A stretch of DNA of 64,000 nucleotides, taken from positions 248,001 through 312,000 of the forward strand of contig NZ_CANMCZ010000003.1 of NCBI RefSeq assembly GCF_947496485.1. Direction: 5' to 3'. This document shows, one piece after another, positions 52,000-60,671 of the stretch. Both the position numbers and the translations under genes were made by a program. Source of the stretch: an uncultured Winogradskyella sp. (GTDB lineage: Bacteria > Bacteroidota > Bacteroidia > Flavobacteriales > Flavobacteriaceae). Numbering within the stretch: position 1 is the first letter of the stretch; every line of letters begins with the position of its first letter. A model generated the notes under the pieces. It worked only from the letters and a program-made list of their open reading frames with translations. It did not search any database and had not been told where the DNA came from.

Positions 52000-54465
52000 A
52001 TGAAAAAAGGTCTTGCATATTGCTCCTTGCTTTTTCTTTTAAGCTCATTTATTATTTCAAACAACAATAACTTTGCCGACTTAATAATAGAAAAACTTCA
52101 AAATTATAGAGATATTGAGTGGCCTGAAAAAGTATACCTTCATACAGACAAAGATTTGTATTTGCTAAATGAAACTATTTGGTTTTCTGCATATTTAGTC
52201 AATGGCATCACCAATAAAAAAAGTACTAAAAGCGCTGTGCTTTACGTAGAACTGATTAATGATCGAGACAGTATTGTTGGCAAAAGAAAATTGTACTTCG
52301 AAGATATAAGCTCTGGAGGTGATTTTAAAATTGAAAAAGAATGGAAAAAAGGCAAGTATGTATTACGAGCATACACCAATTATATGCGTAATGAAGACCC
52401 AACTTATTTTTTTAAAAGGGAAATAGACATTTGGGAAGTCGATAAAAAAGATAGTCTAAGTATTTTAAATAATGATACACCATCAGAAAAACCTACTTAT
52501 TCTGATGACCGTCCAGATTTACATTTTTATCCAGAAGGTGGATATTTAGTGGAAAAATTAACCAGTAAAGTTGCTATTAAAATTAAGGATGAAATCTATG
52601 ACAAAACACACCTTAAAGGGTATGTCGTAGATGAAGATGGCACCCTTATTTCAGATTTTAAAACTTCAAACTACGGTTTAGGCTATTTTTATATAACTCC
52701 AAATTCTAATAAAACATATTATGCAAATCTAGAGGTAAATGGGTCCTTTTATAAATATCGTCTACCAAAAGCATTACCGTTAGGATATAATTTAAGTGTT
52801 AGCTATAAAAATGATAAGCTATTAATAGATGTTAAAACAACAACAGAAAAAGGACTTTCCAATTCTTACTTAATAATTCACCAAAGAGGAGATATCCTTT
52901 TTGAGAAATTAGAAACCACAGATAAAACTAATTATTTCATTAGCCTATCAACCAATGATTTACAAGATGGAGTAACACACCTAACATTATTTAATCCTGA
53001 AGGTAAACCCGTTTGTGAGCGTTTAGTTTTTATTGAAAATCCTAAAAATAAAGCCACCATTAAAATTAAAAAAAACAAAGAGGTTTTGGCTATCAAAGAG
53101 AAAGCTTTTTTACAACTCAATGTGGAAAATTATATAGGTGCAAATCTTCCAAGTCATTTATCACTAAGTGTTAGAAATTCCAACACAATACCTTATAATA
53201 ATAATTCTGAAAATATTAAATCATGGTTATTACTCAACTCTGATTTAAGAGGAGAAATTAAAAATCCAGGTTACTTTTTTTCCGAAACTAAAGATTACAA
53301 AAAGAAATATCTATTAGATTTAGTGATGATGACTAATGGATGGAGACGTTTCACATGGCAAGATCTACTCTACAGAAAAAATAAAACTTCGCCTTATAAT
53401 ATTGAAAAAGGTATTATTATTTCTGGTAACACCAAGCTACTAAATACGCCATATACACTGACACCTGCTTATACATCATTAACATTTCTCGGAGAAGAAA
53501 TAACACAACAACCTATTCAAAAATCTAACGCTGACGGTAAATTTAGTTTTGGCCCTTTTATAATTTATGATTCTATACCAACCATTATTCAATCGAGATT
53601 GACAGATTTTAAATCTAAAGAACAAAAAGATAGAGAATTATCAATTTCAATAAACGAGAATATTCCTAGTCCAAATATTATCAAAAATATCAGGAAGAAA
53701 ACCCACCTACATAATAAAAATGAAGCCACTAAGTATTCAAATATAAATGAATATATAAGAGATATTAATTTTCAATTTAATCAAAACAGTGAAAAGTTGG
53801 ATGAAGTCGTCGTTGTTGGAAAAAAGAGAGCAGAGAAGAGCTTAAGAGAACAAGAAATGAGAGATATCGCAACATTTAACTTTCCAAGTTATAGACTAGA
53901 TGTAGAATCAGATGAAACCTTAGAAAATCAACCTCTTACTTCGCTACTGGCTCAATTTCCTGGATTAAATTTTACTGGAAGGAGTTTTTTTATAAGAGGA
54001 AGCGCAGGTTCCCCTAAAATTATTATTAATGACATAACAACTGATTTAGATGAACTGTTAAGTATACCTACAGATCAAATTTCGTTTATAGATTTTTATA
54101 GAGGCGCAAATTCAGCAGTTTTTTCTGATGCTAGTAATGGAGTACTTGTTGTTTATACCAGAAGAGGAAAATTTACATCTACAGGAAAAAGAAAACCAGG
54201 TATTATCAACTTTATTACCAAAGGTTTTTACACTGCTAAAGAGTTTTACTCACCAGATTACACCAAAGATATTGCTGAAAATTCTAAATACGATTTACGA
54301 AAAACACTTTACTGGAATCCTAAAATTAGAATTACAGCCGAAAATAAGACACAACAAATTTCGTTTTTTACAAGCGATATAAGAGGTGATTATATTATTG
54401 AAGTTGAAGGTATTTCAGAATCAGGTATTCCTTTACATCAAATTAGTACCTTTTCAGTAGAATAA
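52000..54465 (+). CDS. Exported MG2-like protein with C-terminal TonB-receptor plug domain
   Basis: 821-aa exported protein (signal about residues 1-20). The N-terminal region (about 35-150) has the Bacteroidota macroglobulin-like hallmark KVYLHTDKDLYLLNETIWFS. Several beta-sandwich segments follow, and a plug domain lies at about 605-735 (DEVVVVGKKRAEKSLREQEM, LTSLLAQFPGLNFTG, FFIRGSAGSPKIIINDI). The usual outer-membrane barrel after the plug is absent. It may act as a periplasmic or surface adaptor. It follows the M1 gene after 31 bases and is probably co-transcribed. Function unknown. Confidence 0.83.
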   Translation: MKKGLAYCSLLFLLSSFIISNNNNFADLIIEKLQNYRDIEWPEKVYLHTDKDLYLLNETIWFSAYLVNGITNKKSTKSAVLYVELINDRDSIVGKRKLYFEDISSGGDFKIEKEWKKGKYVLRAYTNYMRNEDPTYFFKREIDIWEVDKKDSLSILNNDTPSEKPTYSDDRPDLHFYPEGGYLVEKLTSKVAIKIKDEIYDKTHLKGYVVDEDGTLISDFKTSNYGLGYFYITPNSNKTYYANLEVNGSFYKYRLPKALPLGYNLSVSYKNDKLLIDVKTTTEKGLSNSYLIIHQRGDILFEKLETTDKTNYFISLSTNDLQDGVTHLTLFNPEGKPVCERLVFIENPKNKATIKIKKNKEVLAIKEKAFLQLNVENYIGANLPSHLSLSVRNSNTIPYNNNSENIKSWLLLNSDLRGEIKNPGYFFSETKDYKKKYLLDLVMMTNGWRRFTWQDLLYRKNKTSPYNIEKGIIISGNTKLLNTPYTLTPAYTSLTFLGEEITQQPIQKSNADGKFSFGPFIIYDSIPTIIQSRLTDFKSKEQKDRELSISINENIPSPNIIKNIRKKTHLHNKNEATKYSNINEYIRDINFQFNQNSEKLDEVVVVGKKRAEKSLREQEMRDIATFNFPSYRLDVESDETLENQPLTSLLAQFPGLNFTGRSFFIRGSAGSPKIIINDITTDLDELLSIPTDQISFIDFYRGANSAVFSDASNGVLVVYTRRGKFTSTGKRKPGIINFITKGFYTAKEFYSPDYTKDIAENSKYDLRKTLYWNPKIRITAENKTQQISFFTSDIRGDYIIEVEGISESGIPLHQISTFSVE

Positions 54466-55076: not shown

Positions 55077-55805
55077 TTAATACATCAACTTCTTAATATT
55101 TTCCATGTAGCCTCTACTCACTCTTACTATATCACCATTTGTCATCGTAACATCATAGCTTTTTGAGTATTTATGCAATTCTTTTACAGCATTCAAATTA
55201 ATGATTGAAGAACGATGTACTCTTATAAAGACAGTAGAATTTAACTTTTCCTCTAAAGCAGAAATGCCATAATTACTTACATAGGTTTTATCCTTTGTTA
55301 CTAATTTTGAGTAATCACCATAAGCCTCAATCCGAATAACTTTTTCCAATTCTATGGTCACCAGCTTATTTTGAGACTGCACCAAGATACGCTCAGGTGA
55401 TTTCGTCGTATCCATGAGCAAACTTTCTGCTAAAGGTCTAGCCTTATTTTCTGATGTATTCAGCTTTAATCTATCTACAGCAACTTTAAAACGTTCTTTT
55501 GTGTATGGCTTTAATAAGTAATCCACAGCATGAACTTCAAATGCCTTTAAAGCATATTCATCATAAGCGGTTGAAAAAATAATTTGTGGTAATTCTTCTA
55601 TATGCGTGAGCACGTCAAAGCCTGTCATACCTGGCATCTGTATGTCTAAAAACACTAAATCTGGTTTAAATTCATTAATTATCTTTACAGCATCTACTCC
55701 ATTATTAGCCTCACCTAACAACACCAATTCTGGGTAATCGTCTAGATACTCTTTAATTAAGTGACGTCCTGCAGATTCATCGTCTACTATAATTACTTTT
55801 CTCAT
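55077..55805 (-). CDS. LytTR-family response regulator
   Basis: 242-aa regulator. The receiver domain (residues 1-120) has the acidic pair D8-D9 (VIIVDDESAG), phospho-acceptor D54 (VFLDIQMPG), a Thr/Ser in FSTAYDEYALKAF and Lys in YLLKPYTKERF. The LytTR DNA-binding domain (about 138-240) shows VIRIEAYGDYSKLVTKDKTY, FIRVHRSSIINL and VRVSRGYMENIKKL. Its start overlaps the kinase gene by four bases (ATGA), so the pair is translationally coupled. It is the last gene of small protein - kinase - regulator. Confidence 0.95.
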   Translation of the reverse strand: MRKVIIVDDESAGRHLIKEYLDDYPELVLLGEANNGVDAVKIINEFKPDLVFLDIQMPGMTGFDVLTHIEELPQIIFSTAYDEYALKAFEVHAVDYLLKPYTKERFKVAVDRLKLNTSENKARPLAESLLMDTTKSPERILVQSQNKLVTIELEKVIRIEAYGDYSKLVTKDKTYVSNYGISALEEKLNSTVFIRVHRSSIINLNAVKELHKYSKSYDVTMTNGDIVRVSRGYMENIKKLMY

Positions 55806-56848
55806 ATAGCAAAAGATATTTTTAAACCCTTTGGAGTATTATCAGATAGATTTAAAGTGCTTTTATACATTTTCTCTAAACGAAGCTTAGTGTTTGTAAG
55901 ACCTATTCCTTTATCAAATACTGAAGTCTTGTCCTTTATACCAACACCAGTGTCTGTAATTTCAAAATGCAACTTATCATTTTTCTTAAAAATATGAATG
56001 GCAATTTTTCCTCCTTCAATCAAAGAGGATAAACCGTGCTTAACGGAGTTTTCGACTAAAGGTTGTAATAACATTGGTGGAATCATTTCATTGTTTAAAT
56101 CTTCGTCTACTGAAATTTCGACTTCTAAGCGTTCTTGAAAACGCTCCTTCTCTAAATCCAGGTATTTATTGACAAATTCCAATTCTTCATGAAGTGGCAC
56201 TTTTTCAACTTGCGATGCTTTTAATTGATAGCGAAATAAATCAGATAATTCAGCTATTAAATGCCTCGTCTTTTCGTTTTCAGAAGGTACTGACGCACTA
56301 ATCGTATTAAAAATATTATATAAAAAATGCGGGTTTAACTGTGCTTTAAGTGCTGAGAGTTCACTTTTTAGAGCTGCAGTTTTTAATTCGCCTTCTACTT
56401 TTATTTTTTTCTGATTTTCTAAAAAATAGCGATAAGCAAAAAAGCATCCGAATTGAATATATAAGAATAACGTAGGAATATACCAATCCCAAATACCTGA
56501 TTTACCTGGTAAATGCCACTCATTTAAATAATCTAATAACAAATATCTCGACTCTCTAACATAATACGCAACTACAGGAATAAGTAATGCTACAAAAATA
56601 ATCTGTACAACTGTTCTTTTCTTTTTAAAGAGCTTAATACCGACAAACCAAATAAATATCGAGGCAATGAAATAAAACACATACTGCATACCAGACATTG
56701 ACCAATAACCTTTAAGGTTAACCCAACCAAATAGTCCTTCTCTTTCATAACCATCTCCTAAATACCATAACACTATTCTATATATCACTGAAAAGAACAG
56801 ATAAAATAAGGCAATAATTAGAATTTCTTTCTTTTTAATACTTTTCAT
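55802..56848 (-). CDS. LytS-type sensor histidine kinase (His_kinase family)
   Basis: 348-aa membrane kinase. Four predicted helices (about residues 8-26, 52-72, 80-97, 121-140) form the sensing part with no large periplasmic domain. A coiled-coil (about 142-168) leads to LNPHFLYNIFNTISASV with phospho-acceptor H174, then PPMLLQPLVENSVKHGL (N box) and ITDTGVGIKDKT and GIGLTNTKLRLE (G boxes). It is partner to the overlapping LytTR regulator and lies 15 bases after a small exported protein that may modulate it. Confidence 0.95.
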   Translation of the reverse strand: MKSIKKKEILIIALFYLFFSVIYRIVLWYLGDGYEREGLFGWVNLKGYWSMSGMQYVFYFIASIFIWFVGIKLFKKKRTVVQIIFVALLIPVVAYYVRESRYLLLDYLNEWHLPGKSGIWDWYIPTLFLYIQFGCFFAYRYFLENQKKIKVEGELKTAALKSELSALKAQLNPHFLYNIFNTISASVPSENEKTRHLIAELSDLFRYQLKASQVEKVPLHEELEFVNKYLDLEKERFQERLEVEISVDEDLNNEMIPPMLLQPLVENSVKHGLSSLIEGGKIAIHIFKKNDKLHFEITDTGVGIKDKTSVFDKGIGLTNTKLRLEKMYKSTLNLSDNTPKGLKISFAI

Positions 56849-56863
56849 AATTTATTATTTTAC

Positions 56864-57469
56864 TTACTCCCAAACCCACGATACCTCTGAAGTCTCAGGA
56901 TTATAGCTAATTATAAGTATTCCTTTACTTGTCAACATGTTATATGCTTCAGAGACTTTAATTTCATCTCCATCCTCCCACGCTCTCGCATCACCATCAT
57001 CATATTTAAATACCAATCCGCCCTCAAAAACGAGTAAAATGTTATAACGGTCTTTAATAGTTTCAGATTTGGTAATCTCCTTACTGACTAAATGAGGTGT
57101 ATTAGATTTTATTTTGATATCATCATATTTTTCCTTTGATTCATTCTCTACTTCATAAGTTTCCATTTTTCTTATATCAATTTGCAAAACAAATATTTCT
57201 AAAGTACCACCATCTATTTTAATGACTTCCATGGTTTCACTTAATGGAAATTTTACTTCCAACGTATATTTTCCATTCACAGTAATTGCATCATTTTTTC
57301 TTATTAGTCTACTGTTCCCATTTTCGTCAATTAAATTCATAACAACGTTCTCAGGATATTTAAAGCTCTCAGCATCATTTTTTTTGATAAATACAAAGTA
57401 CTCTTGTGCTATTGAGCATTCAAATGAAGTCAATAAAATTAAAAAAATAAATATTACTCTAATTTTCAT
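56864..57469 (-). CDS. Small exported protein paired with the kinase, paralogue of the 60 kb gene
   Basis: 201-aa exported protein (signal about residues 1-21, cut after SIAQ), no recognised family. It is first gene of the kinase/regulator operon (15 bases to the kinase). The C-terminal ~60 residues align with those of the 198-aa protein at 60075-60671: both have N-L ... F/G ... F-x-Y-(D/E)-D, RAW/RAY, then a G-x-L-x-(I/V)-S-(Y/F)-N-P segment and end in V-x-W-V-(W/F)-E. Middle regions are acidic and diverged. Its position suggests a periplasmic ligand-binding or signal protein. Function unknown. Confidence 0.75.
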   Translation of the reverse strand: MKIRVIFIFLILLTSFECSIAQEYFVFIKKNDAESFKYPENVVMNLIDENGNSRLIRKNDAITVNGKYTLEVKFPLSETMEVIKIDGGTLEIFVLQIDIRKMETYEVENESKEKYDDIKIKSNTPHLVSKEITKSETIKDRYNILLVFEGGLVFKYDDGDARAWEDGDEIKVSEAYNMLTSKGILIISYNPETSEVSWVWE

Positions 57470-57522
57470 TTTGATGAGTTTTAATCAAATATAGCTTAAG
57501 CATCTCTCTAAACTAAATTCAA

Positions 57523-57531
57523 ACAGTTAAG
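57523..57531 (+). promoter_or_regulatory. LytTR-consensus-like site in the divergent promoter region
   Basis: ACAGTTAAG fits the LytTR consensus [TA][AC][CA]GTTN[AG][TG] at every position. A near copy, ACAGTTTTG (57588-57596, one mismatch), lies 65 bases on. The classical 12-13-base spacing is absent, so the call is weak. Confidence 0.3.
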
Positions 57532-57653
57532 TCGTCCTATAGACCGATGAATGGGAATACCAATTTATCCCCTTATATGCCAACTTAACAGTTTTGACGT
57601 GTACAACATAAGCAAGTGTCTCATATTTGTATCAGAAATTAAATCTAATTACC

Positions 57654-60056
57654 ATGAAATTTTTTATAGCGCTATTAATTCTAACCACTTGTGGATTAAC
57701 CACAGCACAAAATACAATTACAGGGAAGATTGTCACACAAGATCAAAAGCCTGTTCCATCCGCTATACTTTCATTGCTCAATTCTGATTCCAATGCCTTT
57801 ATTAAAGGTGAACTTTCTAACGATTCAGGAAATTTCAATTTTAAAACTATTGAAAATGGTTCTTACATCCTTATAATTACAAGCTTAGGCTTAAAAGACT
57901 ATAAGTCTGAAATTTTTGTACTAAACTCTAATAACAAAGAATTTGGTACCATTATAATGACAACAGATTCAGCAGAGCTAGATGAAGTCATTGTGGTTGC
58001 AGAAAAACCAATGATTGAAGTTAGAGCTGACAAAACGATATTTAACGTTGCAAATACCGTTAATGCTATTGGTGATTCTGGTTTTGAGTTATTAAGAAAA
58101 GCTCCAGGCATAATAATCGATAATTCAGATAATATCGTTGTTGAAGGGAAAGCTGGTGTTTTGGTCTATATTGATGATAGACCTTCTGTATTACGAGGTC
58201 AGGATTTGGTAAACTATCTAAAAACTTTACAGGCAAGCGACATTGAAGCTATAGAAATTATTACGCAACCCTCTTCTCGTTTTGATGCTGAGGGAAACGC
58301 AGGCATTATAAATATAATCTTAAAAAGGGATAAATCCTTGGGCACTAATGGTACAGTTGCTTCGAGTTTAACAATAGGTGACTTTGCTAGGACTAGTAAT
58401 TCAGTGTCCTTTAACAACCGAAATAAGACAACCAGCTTATATGGTACGTATAGCAATAACTTCGGAAAAAGTACAGGTTTCATTAATCTCGATAGAACTC
58501 AAAACGGAACCAATTTTAACGCAATGACAACGAGTATTTTTGATAATAACAGTAATAATATAAGACTGGGTTTTGATTATTACGCCAACAAGAAATCAAC
58601 TTTTGGAATTATAATGAATGGGAATTTCAGTAATTCATCTAATGAAAGTGATTCTCGTACTCCAATTACATTAAGCGGAGATAATAGCCCTTCCGAAATT
58701 CTTATTGCTGGTAGCGATTCTAATAACAGAACGGCCAACCTCTTTACCAACATCAACTACAGATTTAAAGATACACTTGGTCATTCATTAAATATTGATT
58801 TAGATTACGGAAAATATAATAGTGCAAGAGAAAATCTGCAACCCAATCGCTATTTTAATGGTGACGAAACCCAAGTTTTAAGCGAAAATATTGTTTTCTT
58901 TGATACACCTATTGATATTTCAATCATTTCTGGCCAAGCAGATTATGAACAAAACTTCCTAAAAGGTATCTTAAGTCTTGGAGTAAAATATTCTAAAGTA
59001 AAAACCGAAAACAGTTTTGATGCATACGATAGAACTAATGGTATCATTGATTTAGACGAAACTCAGTCTAATGATTTTGATTACGACGAGCAAATCAATG
59101 CAGCTTATTTTAATTACAGTAGAAAATTAGAAAAATTCAATATTCAGTTTGGACTTCGTGTTGAGAATACCATTTCTTATGGTCTTTTAGAAAGTATGCA
59201 AAATAATGTAAATGATCGTGTAGAACGTAACTATACCAATTGGTTTCCTAGTGGTGGTTTAACATATCAGATTAATCAAAAGAATAGTTTAGCATTAATT
59301 TATAGTAAACGAATTCAAAGACCTAACTATCAAAGTTTAAATCCTTTTCAGTATCGAATCGATGAGTTGTCATTTAGACAAGGTAATCCGTTTTTGCAAC
59401 CACAATACACAGATAATATAAAACTATCGCATACTTATAATTACAGATTAACAACATCACTAAGTTATAGTTTTATCGAAGATTTTTTCGCACAAGTAAC
59501 CGAAGCTGTTGGAGACGATCAAAATTTTATCATACAAAGAAACGTTGCAAACCAAAAGATCCTAAACCTTGGAGTTTCTTATCCAACAAAACTTAACGAC
59601 TGGTGGAGAATTTACCTTAGTATCAACGCTTACAGAAGTATTTATGAAGCTACAAATCCAGACTTTGTATCGACAGAACAAAATACCTTAAGTCTGTATG
59701 CGCAAAATACATTTAAACTTCCAAAAGGCATAACGGCGGAAGTTTCTGGTTGGTACAGTTCACCATCAGTTTGGGGAGGTACATATGAAATAAAAAGCTT
59801 AGGGTCATTAAATATTGCATTTCAAAAACGATTTTTTGATGACAAACTCACTACTAGAATTGGTTTTAATGATATTCTCTTTACATCACCATGGCAAGGA
59901 ACAACACGTTTTGGTGACTTATTTATTAATGGGAATGGTGGTAATGACAGCAGACAAATACGTTTTAATCTCACTTATAATTTTGGACGAGATGAAGTTA
60001 AAAAGACACGCAAACGAAATACAGGAATAGAAGACGAAAAAAACAGAATAGATTAA
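57654..60056 (+). CDS. Outer-membrane beta-barrel protein with carboxypeptidase-like N-terminal domain (TonB-receptor-like)
   Basis: 800-aa outer-membrane protein. I start it at ATG 57654, which gives a clean signal peptide (MKFFIALLILTTCGLTTAQ) in place of the TTG 27 bases upstream. A CarboxypepD_reg-like domain (about residues 20-100, TITGKIVTQDQKPVPSAILS) and plug region (DEVIVVAEKPMIEVRADKTI, LLRKAPGIIIDNSDNIVVEG) precede a barrel of the OMP_b-brl_3 family (about 370-780). No TonB box is evident. It is divergent from the LytS/LytTR operon and followed after 18 bases by a paralogue of the small exported protein of that operon. Substrate unknown. Confidence 0.92.
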   Translation: MKFFIALLILTTCGLTTAQNTITGKIVTQDQKPVPSAILSLLNSDSNAFIKGELSNDSGNFNFKTIENGSYILIITSLGLKDYKSEIFVLNSNNKEFGTIIMTTDSAELDEVIVVAEKPMIEVRADKTIFNVANTVNAIGDSGFELLRKAPGIIIDNSDNIVVEGKAGVLVYIDDRPSVLRGQDLVNYLKTLQASDIEAIEIITQPSSRFDAEGNAGIINIILKRDKSLGTNGTVASSLTIGDFARTSNSVSFNNRNKTTSLYGTYSNNFGKSTGFINLDRTQNGTNFNAMTTSIFDNNSNNIRLGFDYYANKKSTFGIIMNGNFSNSSNESDSRTPITLSGDNSPSEILIAGSDSNNRTANLFTNINYRFKDTLGHSLNIDLDYGKYNSARENLQPNRYFNGDETQVLSENIVFFDTPIDISIISGQADYEQNFLKGILSLGVKYSKVKTENSFDAYDRTNGIIDLDETQSNDFDYDEQINAAYFNYSRKLEKFNIQFGLRVENTISYGLLESMQNNVNDRVERNYTNWFPSGGLTYQINQKNSLALIYSKRIQRPNYQSLNPFQYRIDELSFRQGNPFLQPQYTDNIKLSHTYNYRLTTSLSYSFIEDFFAQVTEAVGDDQNFIIQRNVANQKILNLGVSYPTKLNDWWRIYLSINAYRSIYEATNPDFVSTEQNTLSLYAQNTFKLPKGITAEVSGWYSSPSVWGGTYEIKSLGSLNIAFQKRFFDDKLTTRIGFNDILFTSPWQGTTRFGDLFINGNGGNDSRQIRFNLTYNFGRDEVKKTRKRNTGIEDEKNRID

Positions 60057-60074
60057 TAATTAAAAACCAATATT

Positions 60075-60671
60075 ATGAAAGCAAAACAACTAACAACATT
60101 AATAGTATGCATAGGTATTGCTATGGCAGGATATTCACAAAAAACATATCTAAAAATTACAAAATCAAAAAAAGCGAACGACTATGAGATGTATCCACCA
60201 GGCACAAAGTTTGAACTAAAAAATGAGCAAGGTTACATAGTCTTTAAAAATAGTGACCAGCCTGGTATTATTGAAATTGATGAAGACTATACGCTGTATA
60301 TTTACCCTACTTGGAAAGAAGATGCGGACATATTTGAACTTACCGAAGGTAAAGTTGAAAAAATACTAGCAGATAGCTATTCAGAAGAAGATAGTGACGA
60401 TCATTCGATAAAAAGTAATGGAATCTCAGCCAATTACACTGTCAGTGATTCTAAAGAAAGAGAGGGTAAAAAGAATTTAGAATTTAAGCTTAGTAATGGC
60501 ATCACATTTATCTATGAAGACGATAAATATAGAGCATATCTAAATGAAAAACACAATTATATTAGAATTGAAGGTAAATACCTTATCCAATCAGAAATTG
60601 GCACTTTAAAAGTAAGTTTCAATCCAAATAATGGTGTTGTTTGGTGGGTTTTTGAACCTGTAAAAGAATAA
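60075..60671 (+). CDS. Small exported protein, paralogue of the kinase-linked protein
   Basis: 198-aa exported protein (signal about residues 1-21, AGYSQ). The C-terminal ~60 residues match the 201-aa protein at 56864-57469 (IGTLKVSFNPNNGVVWWVFE here). The central part is Asp/Glu/Ser-rich. It lies 18 bases after the beta-barrel gene, so the two form an operon. It could be a periplasmic or surface partner of the barrel. No domain family is recognised, and transcription ends at or near the REP-like palindrome. Confidence 0.75.
   Translation: MKAKQLTTLIVCIGIAMAGYSQKTYLKITKSKKANDYEMYPPGTKFELKNEQGYIVFKNSDQPGIIEIDEDYTLYIYPTWKEDADIFELTEGKVEKILADSYSEEDSDDHSIKSNGISANYTVSDSKEREGKKNLEFKLSNGITFIYEDDKYRAYLNEKHNYIRIEGKYLIQSEIGTLKVSFNPNNGVVWWVFEPVKE

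Follow-up and report, generated by a model that had tools for sequence, protein, structure and literature searches.

A two-component system facing an outer-membrane barrel, with two related small exported proteins, in a Winogradskyella genome

The stretch of DNA analysed here (the window, 64,000 nucleotides) contains an island in which a sensor kinase and a response regulator face an outer-membrane barrel, accompanied by two related small exported proteins, SP1 and SP2. By the features tested, the island is a LytS/LytTR two-component system joined to a barrel of the OMP_b-brl_3 family. Across genomes the small proteins (SPs) are linked to this island and fall into two groups, the kinases carry one of two sensor types, an operator-like array is nearly restricted to the neighbourhood of the island, and the island is precisely present or absent at its site. 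The chances seem to us about evenly balanced that the island is a dedicated, autoregulated envelope uptake-and-sensing module in which the SPs would be periplasmic adaptor or ligand-binding proteins.

The five genes form two divergent groups, SP1-kinase-regulator on the minus strand and barrel-SP2 on the plus strand. The open reading frames and Pfam domains bear out the layout of five genes in two divergent operons that an earlier note had described (Table 1). The regulator and kinase genes overlap by 4 bp, and gaps of 15 bp and 18 bp separate the kinase from SP1 and the barrel from SP2. We prefer the ATG at 57654 as the barrel start; the mechanical open reading frame begins at TTG 57627. Both domains of the regulator (PF00072 and PF04397) and both of the kinase (PF06580 and PF02518) exceed their Pfam cutoffs, and the top NCBIfam score of the regulator is to the BtsR equivalog NF008677 (173.9 bits, under the cutoff of 246). 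Upstream of the island, at 52000-54465, lies the gene of a large exported protein whose matches to MG2 and to a plug domain fall under the Pfam cutoff.

Table 1. Features of the island, in window positions.
Feature	Position	Strand	Basis
LytTR-type response regulator, receiver and LytTR DNA-binding domain	55077..55805	-	Pfam Response_reg 1.3e-23, LytTR 2.3e-21
LytS-type histidine kinase	55802..56848	-	Pfam His_kinase (PF06580) 1e-25, HATPase_c (PF02518) 3.9e-7
SP1, small exported protein, kinase-adjacent group	56864..57469	-	homology to SP2; tree; export signal by eye
Putative LytTR operator	57526..57589		four 9-bp half-sites GAYGARTKG, score 30/36
-7-like promoter box CATATTTG of the barrel operon, weak	57622..57629	+	by eye; recurring ATTTG block
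Outer-membrane beta-barrel, OMP_b-brl_3 family, with N-terminal CarboxypepD_reg-like and plug-like parts	57654..60056	+	Pfam
SP2, small exported protein, barrel-adjacent group	60075..60671	+	post-barrel position kept in other Winogradskyella

Homology between SP1 and SP2 extends along the entire proteins (24% in blastp over 211 columns, E 1e-9), and homologues of intermediate sequence link the two. They had been described as sharing their last ~60 residues and as diverged elsewhere. The shared end is real, with 19 of the last 60 residues identical, but the likeness is not confined to it, because 29 of 102 aligned positions ahead of these residues are identical as well; a likeness limited to the last 60 residues is ruled out by the full-length homology. 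The view that the SPs match no recognised family stands, as neither reaches a Pfam or NCBIfam cutoff. Neither has a Pfam match at E 1 or better, SP2 has no NCBIfam match, and SP1 has a single NCBIfam match at chance level (14.8 bits, cutoff 214). The NCBIfam search covered the SP1 and SP2 of the window. The Pfam search covered the 19 SPs of our profile and the SP of locus L074, none of which scored over a cutoff; one of these 19 is also the SP of L065. Assignments to CBM_X2 (best 17.1 bits, cutoff 28.9) and to DUF6727 (17.8 bits, cutoff 22.3) were rejected, the matches being sub-threshold and confined to single members, and DUF6727 had no match in a search of the PMC literature. Against solved structures, the best match of the SP profile had an E of 0.66, which we take as chance, and SP2 had no match at E 0.001 in plasmid and phage collections.

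The profile of 19 relatives consists of an N-terminal part, a variable linker and a better-conserved C-terminal part, with an export signal recognised by eye. In AlphaFold2 models of moderate confidence, SP2 (mean pLDDT 73.0) is predicted to have two beta-rich parts, residues 24-98 and 119-195, with a low-confidence linker between them, and SP1 (mean pLDDT 67.8) is predicted to have a similar plan. Profile and structure analysis of both SPs, as proposed by the earlier note, yielded these two-part models but no confident family or fold: in searches with both, no Foldseek match reached E 0.001 and all Z values stayed below 5. The top structural neighbours of the N-terminal parts happen to be related to type IX secretion, namely chain D of the type IX secretion-NucA complex 8glk (Z 4.3, rmsd 3.2, 59 aligned) for one model and PorZ (Z 4.0, rmsd 3.0, 59 aligned) for the second, at Z values that are too low to count and tied with those of unrelated rows. 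The C-terminal part can stand as a unit, since at L019 (7887-8258) it is found by itself behind an export signal. A barrel-side SP at L015 (8348-8704) carries an additional, fused domain (GEWKIDLRPTP...). By eye, this domain resembles a stand-alone small exported protein that follows the barrel in an SP-less island (L075, 10801-11202); neither of them has a Pfam match.

A survey of gene neighbourhoods showed that the kinase-regulator-barrel unit is conserved in 26 orthologous islands, one per genome and in at least two genomic contexts. Rather than occurring mostly apart from these partners, the full-length SPs found are all confined to islands, 17 of which have one and 9 of which have none. 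Kinase orthologues at E 1e-60 or better are present in 17 of 299 and 19 of 397 genomes of the family (overlapping samples) and in 11 of 60 genomes of the genus. The count of 26 excludes the kinases of G304, G146 and G343 and the second kinase of G219, which are distant and have no orthologous barrel within 14 kb. L018 and L065 belong to the same genome, as do L033 and L077. The profile scored the top 8-10 first-look candidates of each genome in the family and phylum samples and up to 52 in the genus sample, so that SPs of strongly diverged sequence may have escaped it. Among these candidates, full-length SPs were detected in 8 of 299 family genomes and in 9 of 60 genus genomes, the genus sample also yielding one fragment; of the 392 genomes of the phylum sample, the window's was the only one in which full-length SPs were detected among the candidates scored. 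Four weak matches to the N-terminal part only lie outside the island, in G217 and G236 of the family sample and in G439 and G697 of the phylum sample; the loci of the first two were fetched, and no island is close to the match. Next to the MoxR gene at the island's place, G740 has an SP fragment with a stop, which points to loss of the island. G066 has a broken SP stretch inside its island and is entered as SP-less in the counts.

One SP on each side, proposed as the layout of the system, proved to be particular to the window (1 of 17 SP-bearing islands). Four islands have an SP on the kinase side only, and 12 have it on the barrel side only, some of them in two copies. The kinase-regulator-barrel core can do without an SP, as the 9 SP-less islands attest. 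The SPs of the two sides differ in sequence. In a tree of 18 SPs, a single branch splits 4 kinase-side from 14 barrel-side proteins (support 88/95; 90% of 200 bootstrap trees), with three kinase-side rows forming long branches; L011, a near-copy of L018b, and L012b, which consists of the C-domain only, are excluded. Shuffles gave a value as low for the grouping by position in 0 of 500 cases for the kinase side and 1 of 500 for the barrel side. SP1 clusters with kinase-adjacent SPs from other genera, and a fifth kinase-side SP that was found later, at L074, is closest to the kinase-side SP of L030 (48%). The 12 islands with an SP solely beside the barrel and the nine SP-less cores would suit SPs that are accessories of the barrel only, acting as surface or periplasmic subunits or assembly helpers, while the kinase detects the ligand directly. 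We judge such a restricted role quite unlikely, given the four islands in which the SP lies solely beside the kinase and on its strand, the SP-less barrels of L062 and L063, which are 84% identical to that of the window, and the presence of an SP with every kinase of the window's sensor type.

Residues 1-150 of the kinase form a membrane sensor with short loops, and residues 151-348 contain His_kinase and HATPase_c. Three membrane segments are clear from hydropathy (11-29, 55-73 and 80-98), with a fourth near 124-142 by eye. The 26 sensors are of two types: the window's and nine others at 48-65% identity to it, and 16 at 26-35%. The kinase part of the other 25 proteins is 66-92% identical to the window's; in the 16 kinases of the other type this figure is 66-88%, as against 26-35% for the sensor, and identity to the window's kinase drops sharply near residue 150. 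On a tree of the kinase part and regulator, the sensor types require 5 changes; well-supported branches by themselves demand no fewer than 3 for the group of 10. L031, from another genus, is 84% identical to L018 in the sensor and 79% in the kinase part. With two distinct types on a well-conserved kinase, at least three supported changes and the identities of L031 and L018, the sensor seems to be a swappable module attached to a common output.

An SP accompanies all 10 kinases of the window's sensor type, compared with 7 of the 16 of the other type (Fisher 0.004). Supported branches provide only 3 independent pairs for this tie, which loses significance once kinship is corrected for; it is a lead and not a result. 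The last two islands, which are within these counts, fit the tie: G848 has the window's sensor type and an SP, and G783 has the other type and no SP. The barrel-side SP subtype does not track sensor type, and one SP clade occurs with both sensors. An exported protein that changes fast and neighbours a LytS-type kinase of two sensor types is reminiscent of Agr-like peptide systems, in which an exported peptide is the signal and a sensor kinase is the receptor. By this analogy, the SP or a piece of it might be a signal between cells, received by the exchangeable sensor. Such a role is very improbable: the SPs appear folded and their C-terminal part is conserved, the barrel-side clade does not follow the sensor type, and no processing peptidase was recognised as a constant partner, a C92-type peptidase being found in L013 only.

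The barrel belongs to OMP_b-brl_3 (PF14905, E 4e-101, 339.5 bits, cutoff 27), and its N-terminal domain has a Pfam match to CarbopepD_reg_2. It also has the feature of a receptor-type barrel, with 55.2 bits to TonB_dep_Rec_b-barrel (PF00593, cutoff 27). Its TonB dependence is putative because the match to Plug (PF07715) reaches 17.2 bits only, under the Pfam cutoff of 23.9. A SusCD-type uptake system was considered and rejected, as SP2, next to the barrel, has no Pfam or NCBIfam match and the other scanned neighbours are not SusD-like. The window's genome has nine PF14905 matches at E 1e-10. Searching 1.5-kb flanks of the other eight loci identified a LytTR-like stretch (25% identity) near one, L079; these flanks are too short to reach even the island's own regulator, and LytTR-neighboured barrels may exceed one.

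The best-conserved block of the intergenic region is a dyad that reads GAYGARTKG N11 GAYGARTKG, followed by a 6-9-bp centre and then by the same pair in reverse complement. In the window this putative operator covers 64 bp, with two half-sites on the plus strand and then two on the minus strand, 11-bp spacers and a 6-bp centre; the half-sites match 6, 9, 8 and 7 of the 9 consensus positions. The array scores 29-34 of 36 in 23 of 24 intergenic entries (23 genomes), with the window's among the weaker ones, and 26 in the remaining entry, L052. Shuffles (30 per entry) peak at 22-27, and L052 is barely above its own (26 vs 25). The consensus was drawn from the same loci that it scores, so the fair tests are later islands, the rest of the window and pattern searches of genomes. 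Two islands found later, outside the consensus, score 30 and 33 of 36, and 0 of 200 shuffles reach each. Within the 64-kb window, the next best 300-bp stretch scores 25 compared with 30 for the operator. A half-operator pattern, allowing at most 3 mismatches, has a single match in the window's whole genome and is present in 23 of the 24 island genomes tested, a set that does not include the later-found G848 and G783. It had no match in 13 hand-chosen genomes without the island (10 of 49 island-less Winogradskyella and 3 with a distant kinase only), and a backward control of the pattern gave 0 matches. The island genome it missed is G202, although the array there scores 29. Almost all matches (31 of 32) fall between the kinase-side and barrel genes of the island. 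The sole match outside islands, in G220 (L076, 5149-5177), is a possible extra target flanked by a gene resembling those of aspartyl proteases and by another that matches glycosidases weakly.

The consensus of the -7-like promoter box is TAnnTTTG, and an ATTTG block recurs at the position of CATATTTG in many islands. One direct pair of half-sites faces each promoter, which suggests that the regulator drives both operons, its binding and the direction of control being conjectures from the arrangement. In the portions of PMC4847170 drawn on here, LytTR regulators bind repeats of 9-11 nt that are 11-13 nt apart, a definition that the spacing of the array (9-nt half-sites, 11-nt spacers) fits at the level of sequence. 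Near the island of W. wandonensis there is a second, distant set of LytTR regulator and kinase with a divergent OMP_b-brl_3 barrel and no SP (L011, 305-4682). This paralogous set indicates that the divergent kinase/barrel pairing recurs; it has no four-half-site array (best 20 of 36).

In Winogradskyella, 10 of 11 islands, including that of the window, are flanked on one side by a YdeI-like gene and on the other by the gene of a MoxR-type ATPase. The remaining island, that of G035, has the same neighbours and is divided between two contigs; we infer that its SP (L013) and kinase (L072) belong together. At the empty site, the YdeI-like and MoxR-type genes are 1-5 bp apart in all five island-less Winogradskyella inspected (L067-L071), which were drawn from the 49 that have no kinase match. 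Islands of other genera have the YdeI/MoxR context in whole or in part (e.g., L029, L031, L035 and L075) or a second context (e.g., L030, L032, L049 and L074) between genes that we take to be kdsA-like and BipA-like. L053 has neither. In the kdsA/BipA context, exported proteins of ~180-210 residues flank the islands of L049, L051, L052 and L074 on one or both sides, and a PGxxYExG-like stretch common to them is visible by eye.

Hydrolase genes adjoin the barrel or kinase in L013, L018, L033, L034, L064 and others. Their kinds differ between islands and comprise beta-lactamase family, alpha/beta-hydrolase and amidohydrolase, that of L034 being assigned by likeness to L077. They hint that the ligand may be something that is cleaved, or a harmful compound. 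The main rival to an uptake-and-sensing module is a stress-type response to such a compound: an intramembrane-sensing kinase would trigger an envelope-stress or antimicrobial response, the barrel and SPs would protect, seal or repair the outer membrane, and the hydrolases would degrade the compound. It would explain a sensor made of membrane spans and short loops, which is also the fast-changing and seemingly exchanged part of the kinase, and it draws further support from the hydrolases of several islands and from the patchy presence of the island with its clean empty site (5 of 5 inspected). We nevertheless think it rather unlikely, as uptake fits better with a barrel that matches receptor-type families, no stress-response gene was recognised among the annotated island genes, and the hydrolases vary by island, with none inside that of the window.

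An uptake-and-sensing module with its own switch would account for the linkage, the array and the clean presence or absence. In such a module, the LytS-type kinase with its membrane-span sensor would phosphorylate the LytTR regulator, which would bind the four-half-site operator between the operons and raise the expression of its own operon, including SP1 in the window, and of barrel-SP2. The barrel, which is TonB-dependent-receptor-like, would admit or bind a ligand at the surface. The SPs, exported and modelled with two beta-domains, may be periplasmic subunits that bind a ligand or serve as adaptors; those of the kinase side would help a kinase that has no periplasmic domain of its own, and those of the barrel side would work with the barrel. 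The earlier note further proposed that SP1 and SP2 may share a ligand. A sensing role for the SPs is plausible because the kinase lacks a periplasmic domain, has an exported neighbour on the same strand and shows the tie between sensor type and SP.

A further, speculative step, which we hold to be possible though fairly unlikely, is that the island represents a new kind of trans-envelope signalling. Exported two-domain adaptors would relay the state of the barrel to a LytS-type kinase without a periplasmic sensor domain, and interchangeable membrane sensors would adapt one and the same set of kinase, regulator and operator to different inputs. Flavobacteriaceae are prominent in the breakdown of marine algal matter. 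If the proposal is true, some of them have a compact cassette in which small adaptor proteins couple surface binding to gene control and sensors are swapped naturally. As the half-operator pattern is single in the window's genome, the output should be easy to read, and a single reporter strain could be enough to reveal the trigger. The pair of natural sensor types offers a ready test of perception by LytS-type kinases.

Among the PMC matches listed, as judged by titles and the starts of abstracts, none was recognised as describing the island or the SP family. In the literature searched, we did not find descriptions of the SP family, the paired-pair operator or a sensor exchange in such a setting. 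A LytTR mutation is reported in F. johnsoniae, in passages that make no link to this locus (PMC10197871).

The island is similar to BtsS/BtsR and YpdA/YpdB of E. coli in having a His_kinase-type membrane kinase and a LytTR regulator (PMC4847170, PMC5552118). As presented in the relevant passages of these papers, both systems have sites of repeated short motifs 11-13 nt apart and control a gene for a transport protein. By eye, the reverse-strand half-site CCACTCATC of the island resembles ACCACTCA in the yjiY oligonucleotide, as given in an excerpt of PMC4847170. Unlike BtsS and YpdA, as these are described in part of PMC5552118, the island kinase has a short membrane sensor and no 5TM-5TMR_Lyt or GAF parts. 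The apparent target also differs from that of both E. coli systems, being an outer-membrane barrel and exported SPs, and the operator differs in consisting of two direct-repeat pairs that face each other. The barrel is like the OMP_b-brl_3 (PF14905) barrels and TonB-dependent receptors of Bacteroidota in having an N-terminal CarboxypepD_reg-like domain in addition to the barrel domain. In contrast to other OMP_b-brl_3 barrels, it has a divergent kinase-LytTR partner, an operator of its own and an SP partner. In FecA-FecR-FecI surface signalling, an outer-membrane barrel, a periplasmic link and a cytoplasmic regulator act in one path. If our preferred explanation holds, the island would combine the same three elements, with a kinase and LytTR regulator instead of an anti-sigma and sigma factor, and with a small exported protein in place of the signalling domain.
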